NCBI GenBank assembly: GCA_010093605.1
Contig: MU004191.1
Location: 171,112-235,111, forward strand
Source: Lophium mytilinum
Taxonomy: Eukaryota > Ascomycota > Dothideomycetes > Mytilinidiales > Mytilinidiaceae
DNA: 64,000 nt
Reading direction: 5' to 3'
Part shown: positions 8,055 through 25,068 of the stretch, piece after piece
Position numbering within the stretch: the stretch's first letter is position 1
Layout: every line of letters begins with the position of its first letter
Notes under the pieces: model-generated
Databases searched by the model: none
Seen by the model: only the letters and a program-made list of their open reading frames with translations
Told to the model about the DNA's origin: nothing
Made by a program: the position numbers and the translations under genes

Positions 8055-8098
8055 CTTTCTGACAGCGTTCTGACAGCTTTCTGACAGCTTTCTGACAC
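8055..8098 (+). repeat. 11-bp tandem repeat, 4 copies
   Basis: Four consecutive copies of an 11-bp unit close to CTTTCTGACAG; copies 2 and 4 differ by one or two bases. It lies in the gap between the SDR and the aminotransferase 3' end and is probably a simple minisatellite. Confidence 0.8.
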
Positions 8099-8309: not shown

Positions 8310-9782
8310 CTAAGAGAGATCTAGCCTAGTTTCTTCTTGAATGTACGCTTCCTTCAGCAGTGTCACTATTTTCCCCAAATCGACCACCGACGTAGTAAAT
8401 GGCGGAGCGATAATAACATGATCACCACGAACTCCATCTACTGTTCCGGCGCCAGGATAAACGGCCAAACCCAGATTGAACGCGTTCTGTTGGACATTGA
8501 AGCCAAAGTGGCAGGACGGTGAGAATGTCTCCTTCGTCGTCTTATCCCTCACGAACTCAAGGGCCCAGAATAGACCTCGTCCTCGAATGTTACCGACGAA
8601 CTTACAGCCACCAAAAGTATCCACCAATAACTGATTCAAAAGCATGCCCATCAGGGCACACCGCTGAACGAGACTCTCTCTTCGCACAATCTTCTGTACT
8701 GCAAGCGCAGTAGCACATGTCACGGGATGCGCCTGGTACGTTTGACCGTGATTGAAAGCAGCTGAACCAGCTCTCAGCGTGTCCACGACCTTTGAGGATA
8801 TCAGCACCGCAGCCACAGGCGCATATCCACCTCCGAGTCCTTTCCCGACAGTGACGATGTCCGGTAGCACGTCCTCTTGCTCAAACGCAAAGTATGTTCC
8901 AGTTCTGCCCATCCCGCACATGATCTCATCTAGGTGGAGCAGGATTCCGTATTTATCGCACAGCTTGCGGACTCCCGCGAAGTACCCTTTCGGTGCCGCA
9001 ACGCATCCAGATGTGGCGCCTACGACGGGCTCAGCAATGAAGGAGATGACATTCTCCGGGCCTATCCGTTGGAACTCAGCGTCCAGCTCCGCAATTAGCC
9101 GAACAACGTATTCCTGCTCTGTTTCGCTGGAGCGTTGGTATTGGTACGAATACGCGGGCGAAACAAATGATACGTTGTGCATCAAGATATCCTGGTACGG
9201 GACCTTCCTTGGCAGGTTCGCGGAAACCGACATGCTGGCGATTGAATTCCCGTGATAGCTTTGCGACCTCGATACGTAGAACTTCCGTTGTGGCTCCCCC
9301 TTTTCGTAGAAATACTGCCGAGCGAGCTTCAAGGCCGCATCGTTGGCTTCGCTACCGCTGCCACAAAAATACGCCTTTTCGAGCCCATGCTGAAATCCTC
9401 CGGGTGGGATTTCCAGAATCAAGTCTGCGAGGTCCTCGGCGGAGGAGGTAGTGTATGAAAGCGTGTGAACGTAGGAGACCTTTTGCATTTGTGCTACCGT
9501 GGCAGCCATGACTTCTTCGTTGCCGTGGCCGATGATGGCGACCGCTGCTCCACCGCAACCGTCCAGGATCGAGACTCCGGTGGAGAGTTGAAGGTAACTC
9601 CCCAAGGCGCTTGATACTTCGTACGGTGACTCCGTAAAAGATCGGTGCAGAAGACCTCTCCCTTGGCCTCTAGATTCTGGTGACATGGTGGTGGACGGTG
9701 TTGCCTCTGCTACAATGCTCTTTGCAATGGCAGAGGCATCCCCGTTCGAGGAGACAGTCTCGAGAAGGAGTGAGGGTGCCAT
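8310..9782 (-). CDS. Class III PLP-dependent aminotransferase
   Basis: A single exon of 490 residues, matching the class III (omega-aminotransferase, acetylornithine/DAPA/beta-alanine-type) fold throughout. Visible are the phosphate-binding GSGSEAND (residues 141-148), the cofactor-ring residues YHGNS (176-180), the LLHLDEIMCGMGRTG signature with PLP-N1-binding Asp285, and the Schiff-base Lys314 in TVGKGLGGGYAPVAA. FNHGQTYQAHP also matches the family. These enzymes move the amino group of an omega-amino acid, amine or amino polyol to an oxo acid. It has no presequence or PTS1, so it is probably cytosolic. It is divergently transcribed from an MFS carrier through a 534-bp shared promoter. With the nearby SDR, esterase and two Zn2Cys6 regulators it forms a likely cluster. 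The substrate is unknown. Confidence 0.93.
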   Translation of the reverse strand: MAPSLLLETVSSNGDASAIAKSIVAEATPSTTMSPESRGQGRGLLHRSFTESPYEVSSALGSYLQLSTGVSILDGCGGAAVAIIGHGNEEVMAATVAQMQKVSYVHTLSYTTSSAEDLADLILEIPPGGFQHGLEKAYFCGSGSEANDAALKLARQYFYEKGEPQRKFYVSRSQSYHGNSIASMSVSANLPRKVPYQDILMHNVSFVSPAYSYQYQRSSETEQEYVVRLIAELDAEFQRIGPENVISFIAEPVVGATSGCVAAPKGYFAGVRKLCDKYGILLHLDEIMCGMGRTGTYFAFEQEDVLPDIVTVGKGLGGGYAPVAAVLISSKVVDTLRAGSAAFNHGQTYQAHPVTCATALAVQKIVRRESLVQRCALMGMLLNQLLVDTFGGCKFVGNIRGRGLFWALEFVRDKTTKETFSPSCHFGFNVQQNAFNLGLAVYPGAGTVDGVRGDHVIIAPPFTTSVVDLGKIVTLLKEAYIQEETRLDLS

Positions 9783-10316
9783 GATGAGTGATGTTTCGAA
9801 TGTCTAGATCGTTTGGAGTACTCTTTGCTGCTAATAAAGAAACCGATCGAAGACTTCCAGCTCGGAGGGACGAGGACTGCAGACAGCTCGGCCACGGGGC
9901 CATCCCGAACTCGGAAGCTCCAAGTCCCGTCGCAGGAATAGATGGGCCATCTTGTGGAGCAGATGGGGCGCCTCGTTGGCAGATATCCGGGTGCGAGTCT
10001 CAAAGGCCGGTTGATGGCGACCGTAAGATTAGGTCGGGTCTGACCGGGGTTTTCTTTCGCTTCTCAACCGGCGTTTCGCTCCACCACTCCTGTCGCCCTT
10101 GACAACATCCGACACCCTATCTACATCCATCGTCTGAGTCTTGGAGCATCCCTGAGCTCAATGAAAGAATCGCCGCGTTTACCTCGTCGTGCTAACTCGA
10201 ACATTGCGCTGCGATGATAAGGACCGTCGTGATGGGTTCTATATGTAGGGCGACGATGTCAACGGGGAAAGCATCCTTGAAAGTCATCATCGACCAGCAT
10301 CATTCTATCATCAATA
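9783..10316. promoter_or_regulatory. Bidirectional promoter, aminotransferase / MFS carrier
   Basis: A 534-bp divergent intergenic region. It holds an inverted dyad CGG-N6-CCG at 10035-10046 (part of GGTCGGGTCTGACCGG), the classic layout of a Zn2Cys6 dimer site. Further CCGG/CGG triplets lie between 10010 and 10075. Because two Zn2Cys6 genes sit in the same cluster, control of both divergent genes by one of them is plausible; this is inference. Confidence 0.45.
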
Positions 10317-12005
10317 ATGTCTTCAGCCGTTAAGAAGGCTCCGTCACTCGCACACGTCAATACTATCGATCGAGAGAAGGGTGAGTCACTCGTCGATCGC
10401 CATGCGGATTTGGGACTTCAGCATCTGGCCAAGCATGGTCGTGTCGAATACACCGTCGAGGAAGAGAATGCCGTACGATGGAAAATCGATCTCTGTTTGA
10501 TGCCAATTGTAGGTCCACATCATTGCTATTGAAGACTAGAAGCCAATATTACCAGTTGGCCATCACTTTTGGGCTCCAATACTTGGACAAAGTCACCATC
10601 AGTTACGCTGCAGTCTACGGTATGCGCAAAGATCTGCATCTGGTTGGCACGCAATACTCATGGGCCAATTCCATCTTCTATTTCGGGTACCTTGTTGGAG
10701 AGATTCCTTCCAACTATCTCATGCAAAAACTCCCCATCGGTAAATTTGCATCCGTCAACCTCCTCATCTGGGGCGTATTGGTCATGCTCTGCGCTGTGTG
10801 TAAGAACTTTGCTGGTCTTGCCACTGTCCGCTTTCTGATGGGTATTTTTGAGTCTTGTATTGGCCCTTGCTGGGTCACTATCACAGCTATGTTCTACAAG
10901 GGACAGGAACAAGGAACCAGGTGCACAGCGTGGTACTTTATGGTCGGAGTTGCTGCTATTGTGGGTGGCCTCTTATCGTATGGCATTGGCCATGTTGACT
11001 CCGTCGCAGTCGATCAATGGCAACTCGTTGTAAGTACTCGAGATCTTGGATCAGACTTCGAAACATCTTGAGCTGATTTGCTTAGTTTTTGATCTGCGGT
11101 GGCTTCACCGTTGCGTGGGCTGTAATTGTATTCTTGTTTTTGCCTGACTCTCCACTTAACGCCAAATTCCTTAATGAGCGGGAGAGATCGATCGCGGTTG
11201 AACGTCTGCGGAACAACCGGACTGGTATCAAGACGTCGCAATTTAAATGGCATCAGGTCCAAGAAGGTTTGTTGCGCGACAAAACTTTTCAAAACACTTC
11301 TGACATTCGATAGCTCTGCGAGATCCTCAAGTATGGATGATCACCCTCTGGGCAGGGATCAGCAATATTTGCAACATCGGAGGATCTTTCCTTCCTCTCA
11401 TCATCCAGGAGATGGGGTTTTCAGGCATCACCACAACGCTTTTGACTCTGCCGGTAGGCGGAACGGAGTGTGTTGCAATGATTGTTGCAGGGGGTGCATC
11501 ATGGTACTTCACCAACGGCAGATCTATCATTATGTTTGTGGTCGCACTCCCAACGCTCGTTGGCACGATTTTACTTCAAGCCCTCCCACAATCCGCAACT
11601 TGGGGACGCTGTGTCGGTGTATGGTTTCTCCTTTGCGTGCCTGCATCGTACGCTATCCTTCTTAGTCTCATATCTTCCAACATCGCCGGTTTCTCTAAGA
11701 AAATCACCACGACTTTCCTGGTATTTGTCAGCTTCTGCGTCGGCAACATTGTCAGTCCGCAGTTGTTTCTCACCTCGGAGGCGCCGCACTATGGTACTGG
11801 ATGTCGGGCGATGCTGGTGGCCATCTGCCTATGCCAGGCACTCTCGGTCGGGCTTGGATGCTATTACTGGTTTGAGAACAAGAAGAGAGACAAGCTTTTG
11901 GCGGAAGCGCCTGTCGAGGCCGTCAATGCGGCTTCAGTAGAGGATGAGGAGTTCTTAGATAGGACTGACATGGAGGACGCGCTGAAGTTCCGATACAGAT
12001 GGTAG
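10317..12005 (+). CDS. MFS transporter, DAL5-type (anion:cation symporter family)
   Basis: Four exons: 10317-10508, 10556-11029, 11086-11266 and 11314-12005, giving 512 residues. The introns are 47, 56 and 47 nt. The last one hides an in-frame stop, and removing it yields HQVQEALRDPQVW, a conserved stretch of this family. Typical motifs are LQYLDKVTISYAAVYGM in TM1, YFGYLVGEIPSNYLMQ, the RFLMGIFESCIGPCW region and a large central loop with LNERERSIAVERLRNNRTG before TM7. About 12 TM segments are expected, with both ends cytosolic. Relatives (Dal5, Tna1, Vht1, Seo1-like) import allantoate, nicotinate, vitamins and other organic anions with protons. Divergent pairing with the aminotransferase suggests uptake of the cluster's substrate, though export cannot be ruled out. 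Confidence 0.92.
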
Positions 12006-12273
12006 CTCTGCGGGACTTCGCAGAAGCCCGCACCGACGCCTTTAGCGCTGCAACTTAGATCAACATTCTCATGCTACTGCTATACATACTTCAATGCATT
12101 AGGCATCTAAAACACCACGTGAATCTCTTTGCGCTACGAATCAACACCATCAGTTCATCATTTCTAGGATATTCCAATACATCGCGAAACTTTTCCCCGG
12201 TTTCGTATTGCTAGCTTAAGCATACTATAGGCATTGGACTAGCCCCATCTTGAACGCCCAGGCGATGTCCTCC

Positions 12274-13070
12274 TCACCAGGGGTAGATGCCATCCTTCTG
12301 AACAAAGAGACCTGCGTCTGCATCGCGCTTTCCTTCGATGATACTCAGAACGAGCTCCCCAGAGACCTTTGGATCCTCAGCTTTGCCGAAAGCGCCTCCG
12401 TTCCTTGCCTCCTCGCTCTTACCACGGAGATTGGAGATCACAAACCCTGGGCACATGGCAAACGATTTGAGACCCTTCGACTTATACACTGCCCATTCTC
12501 GTGCCATGACCATGTTGAGTGCAGCCTTACTAGTGCAATAAGCATCGGCGCCTGGGAAATCAGGGCCGCTAGCACCCCCCGCCATTGCGATTGATCCAAG
12601 TCCGGAGCTGATGTAGATCGAATATGGTTTCTCTGCCTTCAGCAGCAGCGGCCTGAAGGCTTCGGCTACCATCGCAGGCCCGACGACGTTGGTCTCTAAG
12701 ACTGCTTGGAAGCGAGTCTTCAGGTCTGGATCTCTGTTACCGATGCCGGCGTTGTTGACGAGGACATCCAGGGTTCCGAATTTGTCGCTGACGAGCTCGG
12801 CGGCTTGCTCAATCGATTTCTGATCAGTGACATCGAGATGGATGGTGGATAAGGTGCCCTTTATTCCGGTTGCTTCGATCTCTGACTTGGCGTTTTCTGC
12901 GTTTTCGAGAGAGCGGCAAGCCATGATGATGTGGAAGTTCTCTGATGCACTGGCTAGGACTTTGGCCGTAGCGTAGCCGACGCCAGAATTGGCACCTGAT
13001 TCATATAAGACCATGTTGATAGTTCAAGTCTCTGGGACTCACCGGTAATGAGAACTGTTGTTGGAGCCAT
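12274..13070 (-). CDS. Short-chain dehydrogenase/reductase
   Basis: Two exons: 13070-13043 (28 nt) and 12995-12274, with a 47-nt intron, giving 249 residues. The tiny first exon supplies the start of the cofactor motif: MAPTTVLITG joins ANSGVG, so the GxxxGxG is split by the intron at residue 10. Other marks are NNAG (90-93), Ser139/140 in YISSGLGS and Tyr162/Lys166 in YCTSK. ACRS after the second strand (residues 35-38) puts Arg where NADP(H) binders often have it. The reaction is oxidation or reduction of an alcohol/carbonyl, substrate unknown. It sits tail to tail with the MFS carrier and is divergent from the first Zn2Cys6 gene. In a cluster model it could process the oxo product of the aminotransferase. 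Confidence 0.9.
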
Positions 13071-13708
13071 CTTGGTACCGCTCAGAAGACAATTCAATTA
13101 AGGGATGTTGATAAAGCTTGATAGATTAGAAAACAGGATGAGTTGAGTGATGAGCTGGTTGACCTTTCACGAGATGGACGGAGTGCATTTATAGCTGAAC
13201 GGCCCCGTTCTATCTCCCGATCTCCGTCCATTTCTTAGTACATATCGTCATAGGACAGTTCGCCTTGTGGATAACTCGGACAGGGACTAAACTATTTCGG
13301 GAGCTACTCGCTACGGGATGAAACTACATTACGCTTACCGAGACGGTGAGCATTTTCGGAAAGATCATAAATCATCGAGTAGAGAGAGGCCTTTCCGCCT
13401 CTGGTGTTACACACATCAGTACGGATATATAGCAAACTCCGGGGAAGAGACTCATGCTAGCGATGGCACTAAATATACCAGGCGCTAAACCGACTCTGGC
13501 GATACTCGCGGCGCAGGGACGTGCACGTCACTAGTTGGACGAATAAGAACGCCGGCGGAGTTAAGCACTCAAGCCCAACTCGCAGGTATCCTCATCTCCT
13601 AGACTTACTCCATCAAAGCCATCACAAGTAGAACATCGTCTTAACGAGCGAACGACCGAGTTTGCCCTCTTTCGAACGAGCGACGCGCACAAATCCTGCC
13701 TAGGCATC
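13071..13708. promoter_or_regulatory. Bidirectional promoter, SDR / Zn2Cys6 regulator
   Basis: A 638-bp divergent region. A TATAAAT box for the minus-strand SDR lies at 13187-13193, about 117 nt before its ATG. Just upstream is a near-perfect inverted repeat, GAACGG-CC-CCGTTC at 13197-13210, that is CGG-N2-CCG. Its place next to a TATA box in a cluster with Zn2Cys6 genes makes it a candidate operator. Confidence 0.45.
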
Positions 13709-15331
13709 ATGCCGTTCCCAAGCGCTGGGTGCCAGCCATGTAGGGCCCGACGGCTCAAGGCTAGTCGACCCCGTAATATGATTGAAGACTTCTGACCTTG
13801 ACTGTAGTGCGACGAGGCCCAGCCCGTGTGCCAGAGGTGTGCAAAATCCCGGCGAATCTGCGATGGGCGACAAGCTTTCATAGTGCATACGGAAAACCCT
13901 TACGCTAGCGGCCAGAAAAAGCGTCCCAGAGGACCACGATCAACTCGCAAAAGCGAGCCAGCAACCACTCTGCATGCCCTTCTCCCGCGTCAGCCTTTAG
14001 ACCTGCAGGCCGAAGCCGTTGTGTACTACGTACGTTTCTATCTGCATAGCCCAAAGGATGCCCTGCCACTTCTAAGTGCACACTGTGCGCCGAGTGATCT
14101 GCAACCTGGGCGAACATTACAGATAGAGTGTCAGTTGGTGAACCTCGCCATTTCGTCAATAGCGCTAGCTTTATTTTCACGAACCCAGCAATGCCCGCAA
14201 GCAGGCGTCCAAGCAGCAGCTCAGTATCAGAAACTGCTCCAGCTGCTTCAGCTAACTCTCATTTCTTTGAACCAAAACAACATCGAGTCCTGTCTACTTG
14301 CAATCTCTCACATGGGTCTCTATGAGAACGCTATCTACCGACCTCAAAAGCAGGGAAATGCCTCATTATCTATGGCCTTGCCGAGCATGCCCCACGATGA
14401 AGGGGCATTGGTCTTATTGAAGTTCTGGAAAGAACACTTGAGTCTCAGACAGCCTGCGACCAATGTCGTAAAGACGATCAGACGTGAGGCAATCAAGCAC
14501 GCTTTGCTTGGAAAAGTTGCCCTACCAGAGTGGATGAAAGACGGCGCGGCTTTCGGCGAAGACGGCCTCGCGCTCGAATACGACACCATACTTATACGTA
14601 TTGCCAGTGTTCGGCAGAGACTTTCCGCTCTATTTCAGTACAAATCTAGCCGTCAGCCAGATGCAAAGGAGCTTGCAGGATTAGCAGAGCCCCTCAATCA
14701 AGAGGCTCAAGATATAGACCAAGCACTGCAGGACTGGAGAATGAATTTCCCGAACGCGTGGTCCTATACTCGACATCGATTACCTACTCATCGACTTTGG
14801 CCTAAAACTAGCTTCTTTTCTCCAGAAGTCTCTGTCTACCGGAGACTCGAAGATGCTGCGGTGTGGGCTCGGTACTTCTCCAGCAGAATGCTTGTCCTCA
14901 GTACACGGTTAAGCATCCTTCAGAATATCGAAGTGAATCCGGATAGCCTGCAACATGAACAAAGTTCGGGCTGCCGTTTCAAGCTACAAGCTACGGCTGC
15001 TTCTCTAGCATCTACCGTACCGTTTTGCCTCGAACGGTTCAAGTTCGCGAATGGTCCCGACTTGGCCGATCAAGATATTACTCTAAACAAAAGCGAGATC
15101 ACGACCAACCCTTATGCAGCGGGGTTGGTAACGAATCCGCTTGTCACTGCATCAAGCATCGTCAGTCATTTACCCAAGGAGCAGAAATCGTGGTTCCAGA
15201 GCCAGCTCGCACAGCTTGGAAGAGTCTCGGGCTTCGGGATTTTCGAAATCGCCACCACCGAGCGGTGGTCGGACCTTGTGCAGAGATGTGACGAGATCAA
15301 CGGAATTCATTGCGTGAAAAAATCTACATGA
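13709..15331 (+). CDS. Zn2Cys6 transcription factor (cluster regulator candidate)
   Basis: Two exons: 13709-13759 and 13808-15331, giving 524 residues. The N-terminal zinc cluster is perfect, C-x2-C-x6-C-x6-C-x2-C-x6-C: CQPCRARRLKC at residues 8-18 followed by CQRCAKSRRIC. The intron falls exactly inside it, between LK and the third Cys. To keep the frame the donor must be GC (AAG/GCTAGT) with acceptor tgtag, a GC-AG intron of 48 nt. The remainder lacks obvious motifs and fits the loosely conserved fungal regulator middle-homology region with helical LLQLLQLTLISL-type segments. It would bind CGG-containing DNA in the nucleus. Its stop overlaps the convergent carboxylesterase coding end by 8 nt. 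It is likely a local activator of the cluster. Confidence 0.88.
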
Positions 15332-17072
15332 CTTTCATGGCTGTCTCAGCATCTGCGTTCTCAATCTGTGTCCCGACACCTCCGCTTGCTAAACCTGTCC
15401 TTCGAGTTAAGAGCTCACTTCTCCTGATGCACAGCTCGACACTGAGATCCGCGAGATCCTTGATGAGATCTAGCTCATGCAGCCGGTCCCAGATTTCATA
15501 CCCTCGCCCCTCGTCCTCCTCGCGAGTCATCATCTTCGCCCCACTCTCCTTGATCACCATCCACCGGTTCTTGTCATCAAACCTTTCCCAAGGCGCTTCG
15601 CCATTCGCAAACTTTATCCACGCCTCAACCATGACCTCTCCGATCTTTTGATGTCCTTTAGGCAACGTATGCTTCAACACAGACCAGATAAGCACATTGT
15701 CAAATGAGTGGTGTGCCATTCCACCCCACGCATTGTCATATGGCGAAGGAACGTCAAAATGCCACGCATACACACCCGGAGATGCCAACTCAGCGAAATA
15801 GTTCAGAACAGAGTACATTCCATGGCTTGTGAATCGTTCCAAAGCAGTAAATGTCTCCGCCGGCGTCGAACCTTCAGAAATACCGTACAAATCTGCAATC
15901 ACCTTTGCCTTTTCAGCGCCGAGGTAGGACTCCATCTTTCGGAGAAGAAGGGGTGCTGTAGGCGTCGAAAGATCTGCATCTTTGGCCATTGGCGTTGCAG
16001 ATAGGTTATCCCACGCTTTGTTCCAGATGATACACTCGTTAATGCAGTCGCCCAACATGATCCTCGGACACCATTCGGGGATTTTAAATTGGTTGTATTG
16101 CGCATAAGTGGGAATACCGCCGGGTATGAGCACGTTGTCATCGCATAATCCCATCGTGATGACTGGCGTGATGAAAACGGGGACCATCGCCGCAGTAACA
16201 TCCGCCGTATTGACAGCGAGGAGTTGCTTGACTCTTTCGGTAGGCGGAAGGTCCAGACTGATTCCTAGCTCAAGGAGCATGTTCTCATAGCAGATTTGAT
16301 ATTCGTCAATTGACATGACTCCACATAGTCGAATCAAACCGGACTGTAGAATAGCAGACGAGAAAAGCGCTTCATCTCGGAGAAGGTGCGTGTGAACTGA
16401 AACTCCCCCAGCGCTTTGGCCGAAGAGCGTCACTTGTTCTGGGTCGCCACCAAAGCCGGCGATGTATTGCTGGATCCATCGCAATGCTAGAACTTGGTCC
16501 CAGATACCGTAGTTGCCGACTCCAGACTCTCTGTGCTGCTTGTTGTATGCCTCTAGGTCGTGGCCCGCGAGGAATCCATAGACGCCGAGGCGGTAGTTCA
16601 ACGTGATAATGATGGTCGGTCTAGCGAGCACGTTGGCCGAAGCATCGGCGAGAATCCGACCGTCATAAATCGGCGAAGAACCCATCGCATACACGAATGC
16701 GCCGCCGTGCAAGAAGACCATGACAGGTAGTTTTGATCCATTTTGAGCGGGCAGTCTAGGTACTGAGATATTGAGGTTGAGGCAGTTGAATTCGTCCGCG
16801 GTTGGCATCTGAAGCCATGGTCTTGCGGCCGAGGGGATTGGATAGAAGTCTCGGGGTGGTTGTGGACAATATGGTCCTAGTTTCGTGCCGTCGTGCTCGC
16901 CGTTTGTCCATGCTGGCGAAGGAATTGATCTCCGGAAGCGTCCTGGAATACTTGCGTAGGGAATTCCGAGATATTGACTTGTTGAGTCGTTGTAAGAAAT
17001 GCCTTTAATTTTCCCTAGACCTGGGATCTGGGTATCGACAGTGTCGACTTTGGGGATCTCGTCGGATTTCAT
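15324..17072 (-). CDS. Type B carboxylesterase
   Basis: A single exon of 582 residues with an alpha/beta-hydrolase (COesterase) pattern throughout: LGIPYA near residue 35, the EFNCLNLNI block at 94-102, the oxyanion-hole HGGAF at 122-126 and the nucleophile elbow GQSAGG with Ser220. Near the end, GGMAHHSFDNVL supplies the likely catalytic His. There is no signal peptide (the protein starts MKSDEIPKVDTV), unlike many fungal secreted relatives, so it probably acts inside the cell on an imported ester. It is transcribed divergently from the second Zn2Cys6 gene and convergently, with an 8-nt coding overlap, to the first. In the cluster it would free the acid and alcohol parts of the substrate before transamination. 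The substrate is not predictable. Confidence 0.93.
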   Translation of the reverse strand: MKSDEIPKVDTVDTQIPGLGKIKGISYNDSTSQYLGIPYASIPGRFRRSIPSPAWTNGEHDGTKLGPYCPQPPRDFYPIPSAARPWLQMPTADEFNCLNLNISVPRLPAQNGSKLPVMVFLHGGAFVYAMGSSPIYDGRILADASANVLARPTIIITLNYRLGVYGFLAGHDLEAYNKQHRESGVGNYGIWDQVLALRWIQQYIAGFGGDPEQVTLFGQSAGGVSVHTHLLRDEALFSSAILQSGLIRLCGVMSIDEYQICYENMLLELGISLDLPPTERVKQLLAVNTADVTAAMVPVFITPVITMGLCDDNVLIPGGIPTYAQYNQFKIPEWCPRIMLGDCINECIIWNKAWDNLSATPMAKDADLSTPTAPLLLRKMESYLGAEKAKVIADLYGISEGSTPAETFTALERFTSHGMYSVLNYFAELASPGVYAWHFDVPSPYDNAWGGMAHHSFDNVLIWSVLKHTLPKGHQKIGEVMVEAWIKFANGEAPWERFDDKNRWMVIKESGAKMMTREEDEGRGYEIWDRLHELDLIKDLADLSVELCIRRSELLTRRTGLASGGVGTQIENADAETAMKVM

Positions 17073-17518
17073 GTCTCAGATTAATGATTATTCGTAGAGC
17101 TTTGGGACAATATGAGTTCGATGTTAGAAGTCAGAGCTTTTCTTAAGTCGTGATCCCCAGTCCCTAACGCTGCAAGCACGATTGGAGCTTGGTATACTCA
17201 TCAGAGGCATGGTCGGGCTCAAAGGCCCGCACGCGTCGGCCCTGGAAAGATAGTGAATGTAAGAGGGTGGTTACGTCGGAGACAAACCCCGCCCCTGACT
17301 CTAATCCCTCCAGAATTCAGATAGCATCTCGCACGGCCTATCAGTGGAGATATGCTAGCGTCCGAACAACCGGCAACAAAAGCCGGTGAAGCCCCACCGT
17401 CAAACCCGAACATATCCATCTCAGACGGCAACAACATCGCCGGCAATGAATATGGGTTTCGATAGGAGTAAGCACAGCATAGCTTGATAATAGGGCCGGA
17501 ACCCGTGTCTGATACAGG
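17073..17518. promoter_or_regulatory. Bidirectional promoter, carboxylesterase / second Zn2Cys6 gene
   Basis: A 446-bp divergent region. It contains an inverted dyad CGGGC-TCAAAG-GCCCG at 17214-17229 (CGG-N10-CCG), about 142 nt before the esterase ATG and 290 nt before the regulator ATG. This would suit a Zn2Cys6 dimer and possible autoregulation; this is inference. Confidence 0.45.
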
Positions 17519-19645
17519 ATGGTACGTACGGCGATCGCGTGTGCTTGGTGCAGGTACGTGAAAGAGGAGCCGGAATTTCCTGAGGTATTTCGCACGTGAC
17601 CTTGAAATCTGCAATTCGCGAAGTGCAACTCTAATGAATGCTAAATGAGAATAGGAGATCTAAGATCAAGTGCATACATCAAGGAGAACCGCCATGTCGG
17701 AATTGTTTGAGGAATGGACGGACATCTCCAGGAGACTGCATCTTGTCCGGACCCATACACGCCATCAGGAGGAAGCGCTACAGAACCCCTGTGCTATCCC
17801 ATACGCCAACAAGTGTCGAGACCACCCATGAAGAGGGAGGTATTGATGCGCAAGACGCGACATGTACCTCGAATGTGTTGTCTCCCATCAACCCAAACGG
17901 TGGGGTCATCAACACGTTCAATGCTGCGTCGAGAACCGATATTCTTGACGCTGCGTCGAAATTCCATTCAAAATTCCCCGAGTTGAGCTTCTTACATCTG
18001 GGAACTTTCGATCTTGACTCCGAAGAGACTGGGAATGTCCTGTTTAAGGCTGCACTGCTGGCGCTGTGCTCAACCCGTCCAGATGTACACGCGAAGTACG
18101 TCAAATCCGCGCTCTCCAAAGTACTATTAGAACCACCAAGACTAGTCACAGTGCAGACTCTTCTCATACTTGCTATGTACGAATGGGGAGATGGAAGGGG
18201 ATATGACGCATGGATGACCACTGGAACCGCAATTAGGATGATGCAATCCCTAGAGGCCATGAGAGGACCAATTCAACCCAATGAGTTGGAAGAAGAGATC
18301 TACAACCGTACTTTCTGGAGCTGTTTCATTATGGATCGACTCGTTCTCTGTGGAAAATGTCAGCCATTTACTCTTCCCCTGGACCAGATGAGCATTCATC
18401 TGCCTATTGGAGATCAAGACTTTGCGTTTGGGCAATGTTCGAGTCCGCGAATTTACATCAGCCATGTCCGCGGAGACCTGTGTAATACCATCGAGTACAG
18501 CTACAGCATGTTAGTCAGGGGCTTCGATATTTGGGCCCGCATCCTGAAGTGGATTGTTAATGGCGGGAGGCGGCAACCCGGCATGACGGTCCTCGCCAAC
18601 TGTCCCTGGATGGCTGGATCGCCTTGGAAAGATCTATACGATGAGTTGGATGATTGGAGACAGCAGCAGCACCAGCGAATGAAGTATCCCGAAGTTCAAA
18701 TTGCTGGCCATGTATCACTTGGCCATGGAGAGCAATTTGCATTCATCAACTTGGTCTACTTTATCAGGTAAGCTCGATACTGTCAATCCTCAGGCTTGAC
18801 TAAATGTTGTAGTATTCTATTTCTTAGCCGGGAATATATCCCGTTTCTTCCAAAGCCTGAGTCGGAACCCGAGGGTCCAATTGATCCGCCGCACCTAGAA
18901 TCTGCTGCTCCTGCTGGCTGGTGGGCGGAGCGGGCTGATCAGCTCTTTAGCTCCGCGGCACACATTACGAATCTACTCCATCAGCTTGACGATCTTAACA
19001 CGTCGCTGTTGACGCCTTTCTCCGGATTTTGTGCCTTTTCTGCAGCCATCATGAATGCCTATGTGTCGAGCTTCCCGCGAATGAACTACGGGAAGTGTAT
19101 TCCATTCTCAAAGAAATTGCTAGATGTCAATATCCAGTGGCTGTCGCGCTTCAAGGATGTCTGGAAGATGGGAAATGGATGGGTACGTAATTGGCTCGCG
19201 TTGAGAGACACTACTAAGTTCTAAGCAGCTGAAAACGACGATACATGCTCAAAATCTCTATATCAAAGCTAGTAGAGATCACCAGCGTTTCCAAGGTAAA
19301 ACGCGAGTGGACTTCGAAGCTTTAGAAGCCTCGATTCATGATTCTTCGGGAGTCTCGCCTATTCACGAGGACGACACTCGGATTGTAGAAACAGAAAACC
19401 ATGGGATACAGGGCAGTAGTGCAGGCCATGAAACGGAGGCAGCACTTGGCTTGCAGCAACTATCTCATTCAAATAACGATCCACAACAATCTTTACAGTC
19501 TCCAGAAGATATGTACTTTCCGCACGAGATTTCCATATTCAACCAATGGAATCAGGTATGGCCGCTCTGGGGTGAACAGCAATCTGGGCCATTAGCAATT
19601 GGAGGTTTCAATCTTGACTACAATCTCGAAATTCCGGGTCTTTAA
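17519..19645 (+). CDS. Zn2Cys6 transcription factor with fungal-specific TF domain
   Basis: Four exons: 17519-17553, 17655-18767, 18813-19182 and 19229-19645, giving 644 residues. The first exon (35 nt) encodes MVRTAIACAWC, and the following 101-nt intron splits an Arg codon inside the zinc cluster. Joined, the cluster reads CAWCRRSKIKC, then C-x2-C and a final Cys after LRNGRTSPGD, which is nine residues and longer than usual. An in-frame TGA just before 17519 supports this start. The middle (about 110-400) matches the fungal transcription-factor homology region: LLALCSTRPD, LVTVQTLLILAMYEWGDG, AIRMMQSLEAM, EEEIYNRTFWSCFIMDRL. The C-terminus is Gln/Ser-rich, as activation regions often are. 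It is a nuclear DNA-binding regulator, probably of the adjoining esterase gene. Confidence 0.92.
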
Positions 19646-22550: not shown

Positions 22551-25068
22551 AATTTAACGTGGTAGCCTGAGCGGCTGATCGTTGCTTGGTATGTTTCGGA
22601 TAGGGGATGATTGTTTAACTTTCGTACGGACGAGGTTTGAAACGAGTGAGTGCAGGATCGCAAAGGCCTGCTTTGCGAAAATCTAAATGAGGGAAATGCA
22701 CAAGAAGCTCTTCAGGATCCAGTCCTATCGATATACACGGCAATTAATACGGAACGAAAGCAAGAAAAACGATGAGACATTGTAATAGAGAAAATCAGTT
22801 GCCGGCGAACACCTTGTGATGGGTGACTCGCAGCAAAGACTCTTTGTCCGAAGATACACATCCTTGCTATTCAGTCCTTCTGACACGGTCGAACAAAGAA
22901 AAGGTAAGAGTCAGATGGCTGAGGACAAAGATTGTTGCACTCGAGATTAGCGGCAGACGTCCTCTCTTTATTCATACTTGCTTCACGTGACCATCTACGT
23001 AATGTGGCCATCTTGGTATGAGTGGCTTGGTTCTAGACTTTCGGTACTTGATTCCATGCTTTTAAACATGAAAGTTTTGTAAGTTGTAACCCATTTCAGG
23101 GTTTAACACATTAAAATGGGACCAACGCAATCCTACCAAAATAGCCACTTTATCTTAAAAGTGTTCCTTCGTGATGAGATAACTTCCCCGGGAAGGCGGG
23201 AAGTAGATCTTATGCGTGGACGCATGATATTAAGCACGTGACCCTTCAAGGTAAAGCGAAGTTTGAAGTGGGCCATGCCACGTGACCTAGTCGGTGATTG
23301 GATATGTAAAATAGGTAGAGACGATTGTCCAGTGTATCTACCCTGCTTATTGGAAGACAGTGCAGAACCACGCTGAGAAAAGTGGTTTACGGACCTCGAC
23401 AGTCGCCTACCTAGTCCGATACTAGTAATGCCTCAAGTGACTCAAGCAGTGATAGGCCAGTGTACACAAGTCTAGAGGATGTGTACCTCTGGACTAACAC
23501 TCTTTTCCCGCCTAGCGGGGATAAGGGTAGTTTGCGCTAAGACAAGGCCACCGGAAAGGTCGCGATCCTGACAATAATAGCAGACTTTGAGGCGAAGATG
23601 AAGACTAAGAAATACAACCGACTCCATGGCACTTTGAGGGACGCGTCAGAGAGCAGCAAGACGCCTGAAGCGGGCAACACAAAAGTCAAACCTCAAGCCA
23701 ACATACCCCCTGAACTTAATTGTAGCTCTTCCTACACCTTCGCCACTTTCCAAATATTCATAAGCTCACAAACGACATCCCTCGCACATTCCATTATCTA
23801 GACATTGTAAATCTAGTAACAAGCTTTCACATTTGTCCTGACGCTGCGAATTAGACCACAGAATCGGAGTAAATATTGCATGTATGAGATGTACAAAATG
23901 GAGCTAGTCCGTGCGATTTGAAGTCGAGCTTGGAATGCTATTACCAGACGCTTTGAATTAGGGCGTGGAAAAGAGATTAATTTGAGGGTTGCGAGACGTA
24001 TAAAATGGAGCCAGTCCGTGCGATTTGAAGTCGATCTTGGCATATTATTGCCAGACGCTTCGAATAAGGGCGTAGAGAATGGATTAATATAAAGGTTATG
24101 AGATGTATAAAGTGGAGCCAGTCCGTACAATTTTGAAGACATTTTGGGCATACTATTGCAAGAGAAGCCAGATCAAACTTTGTATTTCGGGCTCGACTGA
24201 GAGCCTAAAGTAAGTCCGATGACCTACAGCCTTGATCAGCAGTAATCAGCAAAGGTCCTATGCGCCAAAGATTCCCTAGTCAACAAATCCTCTAGAATCC
24301 TCTAAAATCCTACCTAGCTGAAGCACTACACAGCCAAGCAGCTCTACGCATTCCCCCTTTCTATGTAGCGATCATAGATAAGAAATTCCTTGGCTGGCAA
24401 CTCGATGCCCGCTTAGCACTCGATTTCCAGACTCATGCCCAGTATAGTGACATCACCACCGCGATCGCCGTACCACAATCCGGGGTGCAGGTGATAAGGA
24501 GCGGAGAAAGATGGCGAAGAGGAAAGGCCGTCTCAGCTTTCCCATGAAGGGATTCTAAGCGGTGCCAAGACTGCCGATCGGCTTGGCAGCGATAAGGTCA
24601 GGCACGTGATCCGGGGTTTAAGGTGGGTTGCTGTGATTCCACTATGTCACCACTGTGAGGGATTTCCTGCGCCGTGGGACAGGTGGAGTCGTGTCTCACG
24701 CGGTCGGGGGCCTGGCAGGGACCTGGGTAGCGGGAGGAGGGGGCTGTGGAGAGCTCTGGTGGAACAAGTGAATTGCGCGTTCTGTTTCACGATGCACGGC
24801 ACTTGGGTGTGAAGTGAATATGTAATATGTACAAGGGAATAGATTGCCGGCGTCAGCCAGTGGTGGTAAATAGTTCAAACAATATATGCTCACATAACAC
24901 AGGCGCCAACGTACGTCTCCATGTCCTTCAACTCGGATAGCATACCCCAGCCCATTCAAATGAGACCGGCTACATTTCCGAATAGTGACAGTAACAATAT
25001 ATGGTATCCAACTCCTAACATGCTCAAACCCAGCCAACGATCACAATAACGGGAACTCTATTTTTAGA
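22551..25068. other. 2.5-kb intergenic region with a tandem repeat
   Basis: Upstream of the Cys-rich protein gene and downstream of the ammonium transporter. Apart from the 107-bp tandem repeat at 23840-24165, I see only short frames without recognisable products. Stretches around 23040-23180 and 23780-24180 look A/T-rich compared with the coding regions. Confidence 0.55.
23840..24165. repeat. 107-bp tandem repeat, about 3 copies
   Basis: The landmark GAGAYGTAYAAARTGGAGC recurs at 23886, 23993 and 24100, an exact 107-bp spacing both times. The whole unit between landmarks is alike: AGTCCGTGCGATTTGAAGTC, then TATTRCCAGACGCTT and AATTAGGGCG-type blocks. The first copy is preceded by a diverged half unit from about 23840, and the last fades near 24165. 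Because 107 is not a multiple of 3, the open minus-strand frame across it (23813-24151) is accidental. No terminal inverted repeats were seen. Confidence 0.85.

Follow-up and report, generated by a model that had tools for sequence, protein, structure and literature searches.

Many fungal gene clusters that look catabolic have no known substrate. The FDB2 cluster of Fusarium verticillioides holds a carboxylesterase-family gene together with a gene for a fungal-specific transcription factor (PMC10512309). Fumonisin detoxification by the bacterial enzymes FumD and FumI combines an esterase with a class III aminotransferase, and the Exophiala fumonisin route uses a carboxylesterase and an oxidative deaminase, not an aminotransferase (both according to PMC4843849). 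Here we analyse a window, i.e., the whole stretch of 64,000 nucleotides (64 kb) taken from contig MU004191.1 of the fungus Lophium mytilinum (C11:171112-235111 in our contig numbering; genome of 43.2 Mb in 24 contigs), and within it a block at positions 8310-19645 that encodes a class III aminotransferase (AT), a major facilitator superfamily (MFS) carrier, a short-chain dehydrogenase (SDR), a type B carboxylesterase (EST) and two Zn2Cys6 regulators (TF1 and TF2). Our best reading, to which we give about an even chance, is that the block is a small inducible cluster with which the fungus breaks down an imported ester bearing an amino group, or a related nitrogen compound. No description of this gene set was found in the open-licence PubMed Central literature, which does not by itself show its absence from print.

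Results

The original prediction of six adjoining genes of these families was borne out, as all six are open, each is supported by Pfam (Table 1), and the block runs exactly from the stop codon of AT at 8310 to that of TF2 at 19645. The genes form three divergent pairs, AT-MFS, SDR-TF1 and EST-TF2, whose shared intergenic regions had also been foreseen; MFS and SDR converge with 268 bp between them, and TF1 and EST have 8 bp in common at their 3' ends. Splice signals and uninterrupted reading frames were inspected by eye to set the exon ends. Genes for uptake, enzymes and regulators are thus co-located at 8310-19645, as expected of a fungal catabolic cluster. The fungal marks of the genome are its introns and Zn2Cys6 genes, the latter being absent in all 14 prokaryote control genomes. 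The description of the block had passed over two adjoining genes, for a second carboxylesterase (CE2) and a second short-chain dehydrogenase (SDR2), and the membership of SDR2 in the cluster is uncertain.

Two of the three divergent promoters carry the same site, GCCGGT-N8-ACCGT. The shorter form CGGT-N8-ACCG occurs twice in the window (0.75 expected), once each in the AT-MFS and EST-TF2 promoters, which also contain three of the window's 10 sites of the looser type CGG-N10-CCG. The 11-base form is present 11 times in the genome against 21 for a reversed control pattern, but since the two sites themselves served to define it, the low count is by itself no test. In a shared-site test that left spacing (0-17), half-site orientation, strand and promoter pair free, 11 of 1000 dinucleotide shuffles did as well as the real sequence, and seven settings of flank and inner length gave 172, 12, 11, 38, 3, 20 and 2 of 1000. 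We take these sequence comparisons as moderate evidence that AT, MFS, EST and TF2 may share a zinc-cluster regulator. The site says nothing for the regulation of SDR and TF1, whose promoter is without it, and it covers two of the three pairs. A search for exact words of 6-8 bases common to the three promoters gave nothing convincing.

Table 1. Genes and divergent promoters of the block and its adjoining genes, in window positions; bit scores are followed by the family cut-off.
Feature	Length	Position	Strand	Family or motif
SDR2, second short-chain dehydrogenase	283 aa	6538-7389 (920 bp beyond AT)	-	
AT, class III aminotransferase	490 aa	8310-9782 (single exon)	-	Aminotran_3 (PF00202), 261.6 bits (30.5)
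AT-MFS divergent promoter	534 bp	9783-10316		GCCGGT-N8-ACCGT at 10006-10024
MFS carrier	512 aa	10317-12005 (exons 10317-10508, 10556-11029, 11086-11266, 11314-12005)	+	MFS_1, 125.6 bits (33.4)
SDR, short-chain dehydrogenase	249 aa	12274-13070 (exons 13070-13043, 12995-12274)	-	adh_short, 112.2 bits (26.6)
SDR-TF1 divergent promoter	638 bp	13071-13708		without CGG-N10-CCG or CGGT-N8-ACCG
TF1, Zn2Cys6 regulator	524 aa	13709-15331 (exons 13709-13759, 13808-15331)	+	Zn_clus, 27.6 bits (21)
EST, type B carboxylesterase	582 aa	15324-17072 (one exon)	-	COesterase (PF00135), 219.6 bits (27)
EST-TF2 divergent promoter	446 bp	17073-17518		GCCGGT-N8-ACCGT at 17382-17400
TF2, Zn2Cys6 regulator	644 aa	17519-19645 (exons 17519-17553, 17655-18767, 18813-19182, 19229-19645)	+	Zn_clus, 21.8 bits (21); Fungal_trans, 65.2 bits (23)
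CE2, type B carboxylesterase	304 aa	20158-21072	+	COesterase, 98.0 bits

The aminotransferase passes the curated NCBIfam cut-off of the bacterial family PRK07483 (NF005685; 536.3 vs. 485 bits), and its Lys314 and Asp285, which we take to be the catalytic residues of the family, are invariant across 35 aligned sequences. Generic omega-transaminases are its best solved matches, both among the best 60 of 186 matches in the Protein Data Bank (PDB) and among the 50 rows of a structural comparison. In a tree of 57 rows, both fungal ATs fall into an 11-row clade with nine bacterial rows (support 100/100); they have long branches and form one group in 19% of bootstrap trees only, with no other fungal sequence in the tree, and a horizontal gain of AT from bacteria is a possible reading of it.

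The neighbourhoods of bacterial relatives were counted within 2.5 kb of AT at 71 loci, 56 of which keep an AT open reading frame (ORF), and one representative of each recurrent neighbour was checked by Pfam. At these 56 loci, AT is accompanied by an RpiR regulator (13), the beta-keto-acid cleavage enzyme BKACE (13), a TAXI-TRAP receptor (10), a TRAP permease (9) or an M81 hydrolase (5), and no carboxylesterase is found among the seven recurrent neighbours scanned. Plasmid relatives of AT comprise 15 listed hits in 1914 records; in the five regions inspected, RpiR lies beside AT in three, an ABC or TRAP importer nearby in four and, by annotation, BKACE in one.

At the 13 bacterial loci with a PRK07483-type aminotransferase at most 2.5 kb from BKACE (L022, L023, L027, L029, L033, L036, L042, L043, L045, L047, L050, L056 and L068), some of which also have TAXI-TRAP transport genes or an acyl-CoA synthetase, the two genes are likely a beta-amino-acid breakdown unit. 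The corresponding route via BKACE was considered for the fungus and dropped, as no BKACE gene was found in its genome. At L024 and L054, the aminotransferase belongs to the clade nearest the fungal ones and adjoins a large metallophosphoesterase; transport genes and a GntR regulator are found close by. In the E. coli plasmid pBH100alpha (L083), which bears drug-resistance genes, an RpiR-aminotransferase pair of the PRK07483 family lies between insertion sequence elements.

EST has an intact GxSxG motif (GQSAGG, aligned with GESAGG of pnbA) and, by inspection, no signal peptide. Its nearest solved relatives among the best 60 of 155 PDB matches are the bacterial p-nitrobenzyl esterase (140.2 bits) and cholinesterases; bacterial relatives, the best plasmid matches of which reach about 32% identity, were too distant for use. 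The genome search revealed one close paralogue of EST on contig C16, 44-65% identical by segment, with the next match by score at 37%. This paralogue, like EST, is paired divergently with a Zn2Cys6 gene, here of the Fungal_trans_2 type, and is surrounded (C16:374001-404000) by an amino-acid permease, two P450s (found on both sides), Rieske oxygenase parts, a FAD monooxygenase, an MFS part and a Fungal_trans gene immediately preceded by a Zn_clus match. The Rieske domain, a partial sequence, is nearest to the glycine betaine monooxygenase model (72.3 bits vs. a cut-off of 670). By tblastn, the other members of the window cluster have no match at this locus, and its regulators do not match TF1 or TF2, the comparison of TF1 with the first of them giving a 22-residue zinc-cluster match only. 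The C16 locus resembles the window cluster in its EST-type esterase and in its two regulators of the Zn2Cys6 type, one of them divergent; it differs in having the amino-acid permease, Rieske parts, P450s and FAD monooxygenase instead of AT, SDR and the ACS-like carrier. It is a second catabolic-looking locus, and the esterase branch recurs in catabolic-looking company.

CE2, which follows the block, has a signal-like N-terminus by inspection. Compared with human CES1, its residues 43-133 correspond to 29-132 of the chain and 158-269 to 403-506, the latter weakly (i-Evalue 0.26), and the part equivalent to about 133-402 of the CES1 chain is missing. Since this middle part, within which the catalytic serine of CES1 presumably falls, is gone, CE2 is probably a relic of a secreted carboxylesterase.

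The best NCBIfam model for the carrier is TIGR00893 (2A0114), which we take to be linked to the ACS/DAL5 carrier family, and drug-export models are far weaker. Of the predicted "DAL5-type" carrier, the MFS assignment stood, whereas the DAL5 label rests on a TIGR00893 score below the cut-off of the model (230.2 vs. 395 bits). Relatives of the carrier amount to 93 matching stretches in the genome including its own, mostly below 45% identity, and one scan against viral contigs found none. The closest by identity is a piece at C11:1859943-1860164, 68% identical to residues 382-458 and interrupted by two stops, perhaps a pseudogene piece. The first intron of TF1 (between the exons in 13709-13808) is of the GC-AG type, and paralogues on C5 and C19 have a GT-AG intron in the same place; the gene model is supported by this position in two paralogues, its donor being unusual. 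The presence of two Zn2Cys6 genes among six was rejected as evidence for a cluster, as at least 149 Zn_clus matches in the genome (150 of 281 candidates scored) make chance pairs likely.

The window lists 72 stop-to-stop ORFs of at least 150 amino acids, and the family scan covered a chosen 20 further ORFs (one being a 23-residue fragment of another) and two flanking ones. None of these belongs to the polyketide synthase, nonribosomal peptide synthetase or terpene synthase families, in agreement with what had been predicted. The scanned ORFs match an ammonium transporter, parts of a PDZ/HtrA-type protease, Band 7 parts, a mitochondrial carrier, an FtsJ-like methyltransferase, an acyltransferase, DUF7730/2EXR and DUF3824, and 10 of the 20 further sequences are without any family. 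Base composition was uninformative as a cluster mark: the third-position GC content of the cluster genes is 0.51-0.60, and that of 31 other ORFs, the range of which includes these values, has a median of 0.619, with 13 of the 31 not exceeding 0.60. At 23886-24099, where no ORF of 150 amino acids is listed, a 107-bp repeat stands twice in tandem, the copies being 82% alike, and an 11-bp tandem repeat of the TTCTGACAGC type lies at 8055-8097 downstream of AT.

The tblastn search of eight window proteins (the six, SDR2 and CE2) against 12 of 14 own-genome stretches (all but L101 and L102) found no second copy of the cluster; it gave single paralogues, a 30% match between SDR2 and the paralogue of SDR and, close to the paralogue of TF2, a single weak match of MFS.

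Discussion

Several observations weigh against reading the block as one inducible catabolic pathway. Two or more CGGT-N8-ACCG sites per window arose in 19 of 100 shuffles, the looser CGG-N10-CCG is not enriched (10 in the window vs. 17.4 expected), the motif was found after looking, and one of the seven settings of the shared-site test was reached by 172 of 1000 shuffles. The shared site was not found in the SDR-TF1 promoter, and the carrier scores below the cut-off of its best model, TIGR00893. BKACE (PF05853) has no match in the fungal genome, the same search finding it in one of 14 control genomes, and the bacterial clade nearest to AT is not represented at the loci that have RpiR or BKACE. 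Moreover, the paralogues of the cluster genes are mutually unlinked (AT on C14, SDR on C16 at 1.58 Mb, EST on C16 at 0.39 Mb, TF1 on C19 and C5, TF2 on C12). Their scatter does not refute the cluster, as they are paralogues and not orthologues.

The main rival takes AT-MFS (uptake and deamination), EST-TF2 (esterase) and SDR-TF1 as separate units, adjacent by chance or within a general accessory region. It would account for the self-contained nature of each divergent pair, the unlinked paralogues and the lack of the site between SDR and TF1, and the EST paralogue, which stands without AT, is paired divergently with a Zn2Cys6 gene of its own that belongs to another subtype. The rare site common to two of the three pairs speaks against it, as does the uninterrupted, closely spaced run of the pairs, and we regard this rival as possible without being probable. 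That all six genes serve one pathway is a hypothesis, weakened by the third pair with its lack of the shared site and by the scattered paralogues. Biosynthetic clusters commonly carry AT, SDR, MFS and Zn2Cys6 genes too, and the block could be a small biosynthetic or tailoring cluster in which AT would add an amino group, SDR would act as a reductase, EST as a hydrolase or transferase and MFS as an exporter. This is improbable given that no core synthase was seen among the scanned window ORFs, a subset of the 72, that the best model of the carrier describes an uptake-type family with drug-export models far behind, and that importers often stand beside the bacterial relatives of AT. The preference for breakdown over synthesis in the original prediction gains some ground from the bacterial AT family in uptake and breakdown groups, the EST paralogue in its catabolic-looking locus and the rare site shared by two promoters.

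A further rival is a detoxification cluster for fumonisin or sphingoid compounds as in FumD and FumI, a comparison that the original prediction had offered as analogy only. The enzyme classes agree with those of the Sphingopyxis pair, carboxylesterase and class III aminotransferase, and among the matches of the relic CE2 is the structure 8s6d, named as a fumonisin B1 esterase, albeit weakly (40.1 bits, 13th; human CES1 46.4). FumI is the structure 6hbs (PMC9858248), named as aminopentol aminotransferase. The AT matches are led by generic omega-transaminases, 6hbs lying outside both the best 60 and the 50 structural rows, and 8s6d lies outside the best 60 of EST, although such absence does not exclude kinship. 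FumD is secreted, and EST by inspection has no signal peptide. Because neither structure is among these best matches and Exophiala employs an oxidative deaminase, the analogy gains nothing: the pairing of enzyme classes is no pointer to fumonisin, there is no specific sign of fumonisin as the substrate, and such a cluster is very improbable here.

Returning to the inducible catabolic mini-cluster, we hypothesize that the ACS/DAL5-like carrier would import an anionic or zwitterionic compound, the ester of which would be cleaved by cytosolic EST. AT could then move the amino group onto a keto-acid acceptor, leaving a carbonyl, and SDR might reduce or oxidise this carbonyl, or else an alcohol set free. 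TF2, or possibly TF1, would activate AT, MFS, EST and TF2 itself via GCCGGT-N8-ACCGT in the two divergent promoters, SDR and TF1 may respond to another signal, and CE2 would be a decayed extracellular esterase. A more specific and rather unlikely version is an undescribed pathway that breaks down an imported amino ester by the combined action of a transaminase from a bacterial clade and a cytosolic type B carboxylesterase, under a self-activating Zn2Cys6 regulator acting on this site. The fungus would then employ the esterase family at two loci, this one and that on C16 with its Rieske oxygenase and P450 genes, to deal with different nitrogenous esters from plants.

The block is a compact and testable case, with a small number of genes, a predicted site and two regulators as candidates. 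If the proposed role is true, it would provide a fungal function for a PRK07483 transaminase, a family whose curated name is silent on substrate, and likewise for a branch of the type B carboxylesterases that is cytosolic. It could also show which plant or microbial ester the fungus feeds on or detoxifies.

The closest described systems resemble the locus in different ways. The bacterial PRK07483 neighbourhoods share with it an aminotransferase of the same family, an importer, a local regulator and downstream enzymes; they differ in the kinds of regulators and importers and in BKACE, which is present in 13 of 56 loci and absent in the fungal genome. The FDB1 and FDB2 clusters of F. verticillioides likewise have a fungal-specific transcription factor, a transporter, oxidoreductases and hydrolases including the carboxylesterase-family FVEG_12634, side by side (PMC10512309). 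Unlike the present block they contain lactamases, amidases and NAT1, and neither FDB paper uses the word "aminotransferase" once in its main text. Catabolic clusters that include their own local regulators are already known from fungi, and the six-gene block of the window is most likely another of this kind.

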